Source: Phreatobacter cathodiphilus
Lineage (GTDB): Bacteria > Pseudomonadota > Alphaproteobacteria > Rhizobiales > Phreatobacteraceae
Length of the DNA stretch: 64,000 bases
Assembly: GCF_003008515.1 (NCBI RefSeq)
Contig: NZ_CP027668.1
Location: forward strand, 1-64,000
Direction: 5' to 3'
Of the stretch, positions 29,763 through 35,214 are shown piece by piece (the first letter of the stretch is position 1; every line of letters begins with the position of its first letter). Under the pieces are notes generated by a model, which worked only from the letters and a program-made list of their open reading frames with translations, ran no database searches and was not told where the DNA came from. The translations under genes were made by a program, and so were the position numbers.

Positions 29763-30653
29763 TTACCAGACGAGCTTGCGCATGACGTGACGGGGCTGGT
29801 GCCCCGTTTCCGCGATCAGCGCGGCCAGTCCCTCGGCCTTCACACCCGCCTCGTCCAGCAACACCTCGGCATGGATGCCTTCCGCGAGGAACAGGCAGTC
29901 GAAGCCCATCCGCGCTGCGCCGGCGACGTCGGTGCGCATGGCGTCGCCAATGGCGAGAACACGGTTGTTTGGCGGGCGATGCCCCAGAATGCGCTCCGCA
30001 TAGCGCCAGCATGCTTCGTAGGCCGGCTCGTAGGGCTTGCCGGCATAGAGCACCTTGCCACCCATGGACTGGTAGCGGTCGCCGATGGCGCCGGCGCAGA
30101 AGATGAGGTCGTGGCCGACCTCCACCACCTTGTCGGGATTGCCGCACAGGAAGAACAGGTCGCGCGCCTTCATGCGCTCGAGCCGCTCCTGGTAGTCGTC
30201 CGGCGTCTCCGTGCGATCGTCGACGAGGCCGGTGCAGACCACGTAGTCGGCCTCCTCGATGTCGACCAGGCGGGTGTCGATGCCCTCGAAGACGACGAGG
30301 TCGCGCTGCGGCCCGACATGGTGCACCGGAGCCCCCGGCCGGGTTCGCATATAGTCGCGCGAGACGTCGCCCGACGTGACGATGGCGTCGTAGGCGGCGC
30401 GCGGCACGCCCAGCCTGTCGAGCTGGCCGACCACCACGGGGGCCTGCCGCGGGGCGTTGGTGATGAGGATCACCGGCACGCCGCTCCGCCTGATCGCCAC
30501 CAGGGCCTCGCAGGCGGCCGGATGGGCCTTCATGCCGTTGTGCAGCACGCCCCAGACGTCGGAGAAAACGAGGTCGTAATCCCCGGCGATGGCGGAGAGG
30601 CCGTCGATCACGGCGGCAGTCGACAGGGGCGGGGCGGCGATGGTGTCGGTCAT
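29763..30653 (-). CDS. HAD-superfamily class IIA hydrolase (TIGR01459 type)
   Basis: 296 residues. Motif I FSDVWGVLHNG (DxWG), motif II in LITNAPR, and a C-terminal AIGDAMRTDVAGAARMGFD motif IV are those of class IIA HAD phosphatases (NagD/PGP-like; TIGR01459 subgroup). These dephosphorylate small metabolites in the cytoplasm; the native substrate of this subgroup is unknown. In many Rhizobiales it sits beside ribF; here ribF is about 11 kb away. It is the last of a minus-strand run purD - unknown - dehalogenase - HAD with gaps of 33-62 nt. Confidence 0.87.
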   Translation of the reverse strand: MTDTIAAPPLSTAAVIDGLSAIAGDYDLVFSDVWGVLHNGMKAHPAACEALVAIRRSGVPVILITNAPRQAPVVVGQLDRLGVPRAAYDAIVTSGDVSRDYMRTRPGAPVHHVGPQRDLVVFEGIDTRLVDIEEADYVVCTGLVDDRTETPDDYQERLERMKARDLFFLCGNPDKVVEVGHDLIFCAGAIGDRYQSMGGKVLYAGKPYEPAYEACWRYAERILGHRPPNNRVLAIGDAMRTDVAGAARMGFDCLFLAEGIHAEVLLDEAGVKAEGLAALIAETGHQPRHVMRKLVW

Positions 30654-30715: not shown

Positions 30716-31627
30716 TCACGCGAGGGTGGTGGCGCGCAGGAAGGGCAGCAGGGCCGCGAGGCAGCCCGCCGGGTTCTCCTCGGGGATGAAGTGCCCTGAA
30801 TCCACCGCCTCGCCGCTGGCTTTCGGCGCGAAGACCTTCCAGGCCTCCAGCGGGCTCGCCCCCGCCGAGGGGATGCCGGCATCGCCCCAGACGACGTGGA
30901 CGGGCTCGCCGATGGTGCGGCCGGCCGCCTTGTCGGTCGTGTCGGCGACGAGGTCGACGGTGGCGCCGGCGCGATAGTCCTCGCAGCATGCGTGGATCCG
31001 CGAGGGATCGTTGAAGAAGTCGCGATAGTGCTGCAGCGCCCGGTTGTCGTAGGAGTCCAGCGTCCCGCTCTTGGTCCAGAGCGACAGCTTCTCCTCGAGA
31101 TAGGCCGTCGGGTTGCGGCCGATCTCCGCCTCCGGCGCGCCGTCCGGTCCCGACAGGAAGATCCAGTGCTCGGTCTTCGGCGAGGGTGCGGCGCGAATGC
31201 GCTCCCACATGACGAGGGTCGGTACGATGTCGAGGAGCGCCAGGCGCTCCAGCCGCCCGGGATGGTCCAGCGCCAGGCGATAGGTGACGCGGGCGCCCCG
31301 GTCGTGGCCGCAGGCCATGAAGCGTGCATGGCCGAGGGCCGACATGACCTCGATCATCACCTTCGCCATGTCGGACTTGGCATAAGGGAAATGGTCGGTG
31401 CCGCCGCGCGGCGCCGTCGACCAGCCATAGCCCGGCAGGTCCGGCAGGACGAGGGTGAAGTGCTTCGCCAGTTCCGGGGCGACCTTGTGCCATTCCACAT
31501 GGGTCTGCGGGAAGCCGTGAACCAGCAGCAGCGGCGGGCCGGATCCGCCGGAGCGCGCGAAGATCTGGCCGACGGAGGTGTCGATCCAGTGCGATTCGAA
31601 TCCGGGGAAGAGATCGTAGGTGGCCAT
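30716..31627 (-). CDS. fluoroacetate/haloacetate dehalogenase-like alpha/beta hydrolase
   Basis: 303 residues. The nucleophile is an Asp: D109 in CGHDRGARVTYRLALDHP. Compared with the well-studied fluoroacetate dehalogenase of Rhodopseudomonas palustris (D110, R111, R114, D134, H155, W156, Y219, H280), every residue is found here at the same spacing: D109, R110, R113, D133, H154, W155, Y218 and H279. These are the nucleophile, carboxylate-binding arginines, acid, halide pocket and base. The enzyme would hydrolyse fluoro- or chloroacetate to glycolate in the cytoplasm. AGGAGAA about 9 nt before the ATG supports the start. No dedicated regulator or transporter is adjacent. Confidence 0.9.
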   Translation of the reverse strand: MATYDLFPGFESHWIDTSVGQIFARSGGSGPPLLLVHGFPQTHVEWHKVAPELAKHFTLVLPDLPGYGWSTAPRGGTDHFPYAKSDMAKVMIEVMSALGHARFMACGHDRGARVTYRLALDHPGRLERLALLDIVPTLVMWERIRAAPSPKTEHWIFLSGPDGAPEAEIGRNPTAYLEEKLSLWTKSGTLDSYDNRALQHYRDFFNDPSRIHACCEDYRAGATVDLVADTTDKAAGRTIGEPVHVVWGDAGIPSAGASPLEAWKVFAPKASGEAVDSGHFIPEENPAGCLAALLPFLRATTLA

Positions 31628-31660: not shown

Positions 31661-32164
31661 TCAGGCGACCGCTCCCTCATCGACAACGCCCCGGGCGAGC
31701 AACCGGCGGATCGCCGTGACGAAATTGTTGAGGGCTTCCGGCGTCAGGGTGAGCGGGTTCTCGGAGGTCGCGACCGGCACGTCGATTTCGATCAGCCCCG
31801 CCCGTCGCGAGAGGTTGACGTCGATGGTGGCGCCGCTCAGCTGCAGGTCCGGAACGGCGAAGGCCTCGCCGGTCCAGAGACTGCGGAAGGGCGTCTTGTC
31901 GGTGGGAATGGTTTCGCCGGCATCGCGGATATGACGCAGCAGCCCGTCGATCCCGTCCGCCAGCGCCTCGACCCGCTCGTGCGCCACCCGCTTGCCGCGG
32001 CCATCGACGAAGAACACGCCGCCGTCGTCCCGGCGGAGATGAAAGTCGAAATCGGGACTTATGCGGGGATCGATGTCCCGGAGGCTGGCGATGGTGCGCC
32101 CGCCCGCACCGGCCGGCCAGACGGCTTCCCAGATCCGACCCATCGTCGTCTTCAGCCGTTGCAC
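31661..32164 (-). CDS. hypothetical protein downstream of purD
   Basis: 167 residues I do not recognise. There is no signal peptide or membrane helix. It looks like a mixed alpha/beta soluble protein, with a C-terminal helix (PEALNNFVTAIRRLLARG) and a central strand-rich part (FHLRRDDGGVFFVDGRG, DLQLSGATIDVNLSRRAG). The GTG start at 32164 has GGAGA at 7 nt; an ATG seven codons in is the alternative. It lies 51 nt after purD and 33 nt before the dehalogenase, so it probably shares their transcript. Confidence 0.6.
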   Translation of the reverse strand: MQRLKTTMGRIWEAVWPAGAGGRTIASLRDIDPRISPDFDFHLRRDDGGVFFVDGRGKRVAHERVEALADGIDGLLRHIRDAGETIPTDKTPFRSLWTGEAFAVPDLQLSGATIDVNLSRRAGLIEIDVPVATSENPLTLTPEALNNFVTAIRRLLARGVVDEGAVA

Positions 32165-32215: not shown

Positions 32216-33508
32216 TCAATCCCGCAGGTGGGGGGCCTGTTCCCGCGCCACCGCTTGCCAGCCGATGTCGCGGCGGCAGAAGCCGCCCGGCCAGTCGATG
32301 AGGTCCACCGCCCGGTAAGCCTTTTCCTGCGCTTCCGTCACCGTCCGCCCCGTGGCGGTGACCGCGAGGACGCGGCCGCCGGTGGCGACGATCTCGCCGT
32401 CCTTCACCGCCGTCCCCGCATGGAACACCTCGACTCCGGGCAGGTCGCGCGCCCGCTCGATGCCCCGGATGAGGCTGCCCTTCTCCGGCGTGCCGGGATA
32501 GCCCCTGGCGGCCATCACCACGGTCAGCGCCGCCTCGTCGTACCAGCGCGCGCTCATGGTCTTGAGCTGGCCGTCGGCGGAGGCCAGCAGCAGCGTCAGG
32601 AGATCGTCCTTCAGCCGCACCATCAGCACCTCGCATTCGGGGTCGCCGAAGCGGCAGTTGTATTCGATAAGCTTGGGCCCTTCGGTCGTGATCATCAGTC
32701 CCGCGAAGAGCACGCCCTTGAACGGATGGCCCTTGGCCTTCATCGCCGCCAGCGTCGGGCGGATGATCGCGGCCATGGTCCGCTCGACCATGGCGGGGGT
32801 CATCACCGGGGCCGGCGAATAGGCGCCCATGCCGCCGGTATTCGGGCCGGTGTCGCCGTCGCCCACCCGCTTGTGGTCCTGGGCGGTGGCGAGCGCCAGC
32901 GCCGTCTCGCCGTCGCAGAGCGCGAAGAAGGAGGCCTCCTCGCCGGTCATGAACTCCTCGACGACGACGGCGGCGCCGGCCGCGCCCATGCCGCCCTCGA
33001 ACATCATGTCGACCGCCGCCAGCGCCTCGTCCAGCGTCATGGCGACGACCACGCCCTTGCCGGCGGCGAGGCCGTCGGCCTTGATCACGATCGGCGCGCC
33101 CATGCGCTTCACGTAGTCCTTGGCCGGCCGGGCCTCGGTGAAGCGCTCGTAGGCTGCGGTGGGAATGCCGAACTCCCGGCAAAGATCCTTGGTGAAGCCC
33201 TTGGAGCCTTCGAGCTGCGCCGCCGCCTTGGACGGGCCGAAGACCTTGATGCCGGCTGCGGCGAGGTCGTCGGCGATGCCGGCCACCAGCGGCGCCTCGG
33301 GTCCGACCACCACGAAGGTGACGGCGTGGGTGCGGCAATAGGCGACGACGGCGGCGTGGTCGGTGACGTCGATCGCCGCGAGGGTCGCGACCTCGGCGAT
33401 GCCCGGATTGCCCGGCGCGCAGTGGAGGGTCGTGAGCAGCGGGCTCGCCGACAGGGCCCAGGCGAGGGCATGTTCGCGGCCGCCGCCGCCGATCAGAAGC
33501 ACGTTCAT
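32216..33508 (-). CDS. purD: phosphoribosylamine--glycine ligase
   Basis: 430 residues, full length. N-terminal domain opens [19 protein letters not shown]; the ATP-grasp region has [29 protein letters not shown] and [12 protein letters not shown]. It condenses phosphoribosylamine with glycine to GAR, the second step of purine synthesis, in the cytoplasm. It is divergent from xseA, with 116 nt between the starts. Downstream genes follow closely on the same strand. Confidence 0.97.
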
Positions 33509-33624: not shown

Positions 33625-35214
33625 ATGACCGACGTCGTCCCGTCCAACACGCCCGAGATTTCTGTCTCGGACCTCTCCGCCGCCATCAAGCGGACGGTGG
33701 AGGACGCCTTCGGCTATGTGCGGCTGCGCGGCGAGGTCTCGGGCTTCAAGGGCCCGAGCGCTTCGGGACATTGCTATTTCCGCCTGAAGGACGAGGGCGC
33801 CGCCATCGAGGCGGTCATCTGGAAGGGCACCTACGGGCGGCTGAAGTTCAAGCCGCAGGAGGGGCTGGAGGTCGTCGCCACCGGCCGCGTCACCACCTTC
33901 CCCGGCTCGTCCAAGTACCAGGTCGTCATCGAGAGCCTGGAACCGGCCGGCGTCGGCGCGCTCATGGCCCTCCTGGAGGAGCGCCGTAAGACGCTCGCCG
34001 CCGAGGGCCTGTTCGACGCTGCCCGCAAGCGGCCCTTGCCCTATCTGCCGGCGGTGATCGGCGTCGTCACCTCGCCGACCGGCGCCGTCATCCGCGACAT
34101 CCTGCACCGGCTCGAGGACCGCTTCCCGCGCACCGTGCTCGTCTGGCCGGTGCGCGTGCAGGGGGAGGGCAGCGCGGCGGAAGTCGCCGCCGCCATTCGC
34201 GGCTTCAACGCCATCGGCCCCGACGACGACCTGCCGCGGCCCGACGTCATCATCGTCGCCCGCGGCGGCGGTTCGCTGGAAGACCTCTGGGGCTTCAACG
34301 AGGAGATCGTCGTCCGCGCCGCGGCCGGGAGCGCCATTCCGTTGATCTCCGCCGTCGGCCACGAAACCGACACCACGCTCATCGACTTCGCCGCCGACCG
34401 CCGCGCACCGACCCCGACCGCCGCCGCCGAGATGGCGGTGCCGGTGCGGGCCGACCTCGTCGCGGAGACGCAGGGCCTCGGGCGCCGCCTCGGTCTCGCC
34501 GTCGCCCGCCGCATGGACGGCCGGCGCACCGAACTCAGGGCGGCCGCCCGCGCCCTGCCCGATGCCGAGCGGCTTCTCGCCACCGCCCGCCAGCGCCTCG
34601 ACGCCGCCGGTGAGCGTCTGCCCAATGCGCTCGCCGCCAATGCTGGCGCTCACCGCACGCGCCTCGTGCGCGCGGCGGGGCGGCTGTCGCCGGCGCTTCT
34701 GGCAGGGCGGATCGAACGCAGCCGGGACCGGGTCGCGACGCTGTCGGATCGCGCCATGGCGGCGCTGGAGCGGCGCACCGAGCTGCGCCGCCAGGGCTTC
34801 GTCACCCTGTCGGACCGTCTCTCCCGTTCGCTCGGTGTCTATGCGAGGACCCAGTCCGACCGCCTCGGGCGCGCCCGCGACCGTCTTCACTCGCTCCACG
34901 CCCGCGCGCCGCGCGCCATCGCCCTCGTCCTCCGCCGCGGCAGCGAGCGGTTGGACGGCGCGGCGAAGCTCCTCGCCGCGCTGTCCTACCAGGGCGTTCT
35001 CGCCCGCGGCTTCGCGCTGGTGCGGGATGCGGAAGGCCGGCCGCTGCGCTCCGCGGCAGCCGTCACGCCCGGCATGGCGCTCGCCATCGAATTCGCCGAC
35101 GGCCGCGTCGGGGCCACGGCCGGGGGCGACGCGCCGCCGCCTGCGCCGAAGCCCGCAAGGGCTGCCGAGCCCAAGGCCCGCAAGGGCGGGGAAGGGCAGG
35201 GCAGCCTGTTCTGA
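33625..35214 (+). CDS. xseA: exodeoxyribonuclease VII large subunit
   Basis: 529 residues. An N-terminal OB-fold ([26 protein letters not shown], first part) is followed by the catalytic core with [38 protein letters not shown] and [28 protein letters not shown], all diagnostic of XseA, then long coiled helices and the typical C-terminal QGSLF. With XseB it degrades single-stranded DNA. xseB is not in the window. It ends 4 nt from the convergent carboxylate-amine ligase. Confidence 0.96.

Follow-up and report, generated by a model that had tools for sequence, protein, structure and literature searches.

Does the product of a minus-strand gene lying downstream of purD in Phreatobacter cathodiphilus release halide from haloacetates, and is fluoroacetate the substrate for which the gene has been retained? 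The gene lies in the window, by which we mean the whole stretch of DNA analysed, 64,000 nucleotides from the start of a genome that consists of one contig of 4.49 Mb. Enzymes that cleave C–F bonds are mined for work on PFAS on the assumption that they evolved for fluoroacetate. From its sequence and its predicted structure, the window protein is very probably a haloacetate/fluoroacetate dehalogenase (we take fluoroacetate dehalogenase to be EC 3.8.1.3). The coordinates of the gene, of its active-site codons and of its neighbors are collected in Table 1.

Table 1. Genes and active-site codons of the window, with positions counted from its first nucleotide
Feature	Position	Strand	Remarks
Dehalogenase-family alpha/beta hydrolase gene (fluoroacetate/haloacetate)	30716..31627	-	303 aa; ATG at 31627, stop 30716-30718
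D109, predicted nucleophile (RPA1163 D110)	31301..31303	-	alignment; role from an excerpt of PMC11022551
R110, predicted carboxylate binding (RPA1163 R111)	31298..31300	-	alignment
R113, predicted carboxylate binding (RPA1163 R114)	31289..31291	-	alignment
D133, predicted triad acid (RPA1163 D134)	31229..31231	-	alignment; role from an excerpt of PMC11022551
H154-W155, predicted halide pocket (RPA1163 H155, W156)	31163..31168	-	alignment; role from an excerpt of PMC11022551
Y218, predicted halide pocket (RPA1163 Y219)	30974..30976	-	alignment; role from an excerpt of PMC11022551
H279, predicted triad histidine (RPA1163 H280)	30791..30793	-	alignment; role from an excerpt of PMC11022551
purD, phosphoribosylamine-glycine ligase	32216..33508	-	upstream, same strand; TIGR00877, 536.6 bits
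ORFan between purD and the dehalogenase gene	31661..32164	-	167 aa; GTG start; of 41 genomes searched, found in its own alone
HAD-IIA gene	29763..30653	-	downstream, same strand; TIGR01459
xseA, exonuclease VII large subunit	33625..35214	+	divergent from purD; PF02601, 354.3 bits

Active site and predicted fold

Pfam and NCBIfam returned only general alpha/beta hydrolase matches for the window protein. Its top matches among PDB sequences in a phmmer search were the chains of RPA1163 from R. palustris (PDB 3r3u and others), with an E-value of about 2e-104, far above chance. The two proteins were aligned without gaps over 295 positions, 156 of which are identical (52.9%), and residue i of the window protein corresponds to residue i+1 of RPA1163. 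The first-pass annotation had claimed that eight functional residues of RPA1163 recur at the same spacing with an offset of one, and the alignment bore this out, as all eight lie one position lower. The Asp-His-Asp triad, the Arg pair, which binds the carboxylate in fluoroacetate dehalogenases, and the His-Trp-Tyr halide pocket are all complete in the window protein. W184, which corresponds to W185 of RPA1163, is also conserved.

The AlphaFold2 model of the window protein (mean pLDDT 93.9, pTM 0.93) shows a predicted alpha/beta hydrolase fold with a cap, nearest to those of known fluoroacetate dehalogenases. The structural alignment that had been proposed as a check placed residues 3..299 of the model on residues 4..300 of the RPA1163 crystals, with the same offset, a Z-score of 48.2 and an rmsd of 1.2, and the pocket positions superposed at the backbone level, so that the outcome named in the first-pass annotation as a refutation did not arise for the aligned positions. 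Z-scores of 46-48 were obtained against the RPA1163 crystals, including those with bound fluoroacetate, chloroacetate and glycolate, and Foldseek concurred, with TM values of 0.91-0.97 among the 50 matches listed. The fold is also like that of FAc-DEX FA1 (1y37; Z 43.6), which is 39% identical to the window protein in the structural alignment. On the other hand, 17 of 39 selected pocket-surrounding positions are unlike those of RPA1163 (for example Y154->E, S157->I and Y149->P), which suggests that the rate and the halide preference may differ between the two enzymes.

We take DehH1 to be the name of the H1 haloacetate dehalogenase compared here; DehH1 and FA1 were left out of the tree and of the residue-by-residue comparison. 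An excerpt of PMC12955510 gives DehH1 an Asp/His catalytic core with a His-Trp-Tyr fluoride pocket. An excerpt of PMC11022551 gives FA1 an Asp/His catalytic core, names Trp150 and Tyr212 for its fluoride pocket, and reports that the pocket Trp is required for the release of fluoride and not for that of chloride.

Four solved relatives carry the full set of eight residues, namely RPA1163, DAR3835 (Daro3835, 8sdc), D4B (9c9f) and NOS0089 (Alr0039, 3qyj). The first three bear the title fluoroacetate dehalogenase in the PDB, and the last is listed as defluorinating in an excerpt of PMC11022551. Two further members of the family bear other names. In 4b9a from P. aeruginosa, named an epoxide hydrolase, Thr replaces the triad Asp (the T131D mutant has also been solved), and in 4nvr from Salmonella, named an acyltransferase, Trp replaces the pocket His equivalent to H154. 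These two names, together with the purely general domain matches, would fit a window protein that is an epoxide hydrolase, an esterase or acyltransferase-like and is devoid of dehalogenase activity. However, 4b9a and 4nvr each lack one of the eight residues, and the window protein clusters with RPA1163, apart from both, so we regard this alternative as highly improbable. The earlier assignment to the fluoroacetate-dehalogenase type is one on which sequence, model, tree and active site agree.

In the proposed mechanism, R110 and R113 would grip the carboxylate of a 2-haloacetate, and an SN2 attack by D109 on the alpha carbon would expel the halide, which H154, W155 and Y218 would stabilize as it leaves. 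The H279-D133 pair would activate a water molecule for hydrolysis of the glycolyl ester on D109, which would free glycolate.

Possession of the eight residues is no firm criterion for activity. The triad acid is missing from 4b9e, a structure that contains MFA according to its PDB title, and a hydrolase from Serratia whose nucleophile is Ser likewise defluorinates fluoroacetate (excerpt of PMC13230308), so the set is not indispensable for defluorination. Nor does its presence identify fluoroacetate as the natural substrate.

Distribution of the family and of its residue set

The six nearest named relatives, five titled Phreatobacter and one Rhizobiales bacterium, show 82-94% identity. Compared with nine of eleven relatives in the genus, the window gene gave dN values of 0.05-0.19 and dS values of 0.46-0.86, and purD behaved alike. 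This purifying selection indicates that the protein is in use.

The residue set proved to be common within the family. All eight residues occur in 96 of 110 family rows (the window row counted), although some of the loci behind this count were retrieved with peptide patterns that cover part of the active site and so favor the motif. The earlier remark that the full set is seldom retained in alpha/beta hydrolases at large fits four homologues of 31-35% identity (L082-L085), each of which lacks three or four of the residues, but inside the family the full set is the rule. In a residue count of 147 rows, for which further loci were added and the contig-end fragment L080 was removed, the set was complete in 82 of 87 purD-linked rows (the window counted), 31 of 39 unlinked rows, all 15 rows of unclassed linkage and 4 of 6 PDB rows. 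It was also complete in 28 of the 28 best-scoring loci of a class-wide draw (L172-L199), which were found with a profile of the dehalogenase family and therefore say little on its weaker members; one of them, L179, comes from the order of the window genome itself.

Family members are present in 107 of 199 genomes of that order (E<=1e-40, RPA1163 as query), and at least two family matches were found in each of the 12 genomes of the genus (E<=1e-20). Among 72,556 plasmid records, 348 carry a family member (E<=1e-30). In view of these counts, and of a second copy in the same genome that is itself complete, we reject for this family the rarity of the motif suggested in the first-pass annotation. 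The eight-residue motif is a signature of the family, neither a rarity nor a proof of activity, and no sign of an unusual organism. By the first word of the record name, 61 of the 348 plasmid records are from Klebsiella and 65 from Rhizobium.

Linkage to purD

On the minus strand, the order of genes is purD, the ORFan, the dehalogenase gene and the HAD-IIA gene, and a CheZ-like gene also lies in the immediate surroundings. No fluoride exporter, transporter or regulator was found among these immediate neighbors and xseA. For the window, L160 and L002, a search for a fluoride riboswitch gave no match to this or any other Rfam family at the gathering score. A promoter scan yielded no sigma-70-like site, and the three terminator-like matches (1.5 expected) are all intragenic, one of them in the ORFan. 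The earlier description of a setting without a dedicated regulator stands, and it is strengthened by the conserved linkage to purD described below.

Both flanking genes distinguish the window locus from that of RPA1163. The ORFan occurs between purD and the dehalogenase gene in the window genome alone among the genomes searched and at 1 of 12 loci of the genus, while purD lies upstream on the same strand at all 12; the ancestral order was thus probably purD followed directly by the dehalogenase gene. Searches of Pfam and NCBIfam at E<=0.001 gave nothing for the ORFan, its one PHROG match had an E-value of 0.28, and its genome contains no further copy of it. Its GC3 is 0.85, and a GGAG stretch precedes its GTG. 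The HAD-IIA gene adjoins the dehalogenase gene at 12 of 12 genus loci and was not seen at the non-genus loci compared. Whether it might encode a phosphoglycolate phosphatase or a further dehalogenase was considered, but we make no such claim, since TIGR01459 is a hypothetical equivalog and the gene was seen in this position in the genus alone.

In the order, which we take to be Hyphomicrobiales, 195 of the 199 genomes have purD (E<=1e-60). Of the 107 genomes that encode a family member, at least 62 have purD no more than 5 kb upstream and in the same orientation; in 3 it is near but on the opposite strand, and 25 are unlinked, a class that may include contig ends; 17 could not be classed, one of which (G091) proved to be purD-linked on closer inspection. 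The 62 linked genomes represent 23 of the 37 families having the dehalogenase gene, and the gap between the two genes is at most 400 bp in 52 of 64 cases. The copy at L146, which we assign to R. palustris on its 98% identity to RPA1163, has purD upstream on the same strand as at the window locus, and so have all 12 loci fetched in its family (that of G045). Outside the order, purD was absent within about 1.5 kb on each side at 27 of the 27 best-scoring class loci (L172-L199 minus L179).

We built a tree by a quick method, with SH-aLRT as its sole support measure, from 87 rows thinned from 147 at 74% identity (L080 left out). The 41 linked rows, that of the window included, all fall into one clade of 56 rows (SH-aLRT 96) with RPA1163, 10 unlinked rows and 4 unclassed rows. 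NOS0089, DAR3835 and D4B, which share the family and the eight residues with the window protein, lie outside this clade, unlike the window protein, as do the second copy, 4b9a and 4nvr.

The linkage need not be functional, because gene order around purD is generally stable. An xseA match was found at 32 of 34 linked named loci, and within 3 kb downstream of linked loci a patatin ORF cluster recurs at 16 of 33 and a pseudouridine-synthase ORF cluster at 17 of 33 (these are stop-to-stop ORFs clustered by blastp, and each of the two clusters takes its name from the Pfam match of a single example). The same picture would be expected if the genes were simply inherited vertically in a quiet neighborhood. 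So lasting an adjacency across many relatives hints at an everyday function. In the openly licensed PMC literature, we found no report that the RPA1163 lineage is conserved next to purD; the window protein itself is a new member of a kind of enzyme that is already known and common.

We consider it likely that the window protein is a hydrolytic haloacetate dehalogenase of the RPA1163 lineage, produced by read-through from purD and acting as a general scavenger or detoxifier of small 2-halo acids rather than within an induced fluoroacetate pathway. Homology, the complete active site, the fold, the clade and the purD linkage are the data behind this reading, from which we infer catalysis, co-transcription and the physiological role. 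In the cell, transcripts started ahead of purD would most likely run on into the gene and give constant basal expression, and the likeliest use of its product would be a low-level, steady hydrolysis of 2-halo acids.

Native substrate and additional copies

The widespread occurrence of a purD-linked RPA1163 lineage in one alphaproteobacterial order makes its native role directly testable. Haloacetates might be promiscuous substrates of a lineage that evolved to act on a different small carboxylate with an alpha substituent, perhaps a toxic or damaged compound from the surroundings of glycine or purine metabolism, and the span of the purD link over 23 of 37 families is in line with this idea. 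The Km of 86.8 mM given for RPA1163 in an excerpt of PMC12184663 would, if the unit is right, lie far above the likely natural level of fluoroacetate, and an excerpt of PMC11139923 takes the opposite view of the family to the argument, drawn from this Km, that fluoroacetate was not the selected substrate. However, 82 of the 87 linked rows, the window counted, have kept all eight residues, the His-Trp-Tyr pocket included, which points to selection for the release of halide, and the general stability of the purD block weakens the argument from linkage; we think such promiscuity possible but unlikely. It is likewise doubtful, and for the present a speculation, that in Hyphomicrobiales the RPA1163 lineage has long accompanied purD in a housekeeping role, selected for an ordinary metabolite or a ubiquitous natural 2-halo acid, with cleavage of fluoroacetate as a by-product.

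The genome holds two high-scoring family members, the window gene and a copy at G000:C1:3197525 (L002), which are 47% identical. The second copy has all eight residues, its best PDB matches are Alr0039 and 9c9f, and it groups with 9c9f in a set of 7 rows (SH-aLRT 95). Around it (L200, G000:C1:3192000-3204000) lie an FCD-type GntR regulator, two TctC receptors, a DUF4147/MOFRL protein, presumably of the glycerate-kinase type, and two dehydrogenases of the isocitrate/isopropylmalate type. These surroundings look more catabolic and fit a regulated use of small acids, which makes the second copy the better candidate for a dedicated use of haloacetates.

This comparison bears on whether the window gene itself serves a dedicated catabolism of fluoroacetate, as its complete active site and the presence of CrcB and of a glcD-like gene elsewhere in the genome might suggest. 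Its neighbors are purD, the ORFan, the HAD-IIA gene, the CheZ-like gene and xseA, the gene occurs in 12 of 12 genomes of the genus, and it is the second copy that has the more catabolic surroundings, all of which make a dedicated role of the window gene improbable. The one CrcB fluoride channel match of the genome, at 1289649, is far from the window gene, and the best glcD-like match scored 459.6 bits, below the cut-off of 567.9. The presence of CrcB was dropped as an argument because it is common (10 of 14 control genomes).

Tandem copies were observed behind purD at several loci. Four loci of Hyphomicrobiaceae type (L036-L039, ORF starts 4892, 4628, 4436 and 4748) carry tandem dehalogenase pairs after purD, and in the first copy of each, Gly occupies the position of the halide-pocket Trp (residue set DRRDHGYH), which provides a natural Trp-less set. 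Two additional loci, L046 and L047, carry further pairs behind purD, and one copy at L047 has Phe in place of the pocket Tyr. The lineage offers natural homologues in large number, among them these tandem copies without the pocket Trp.
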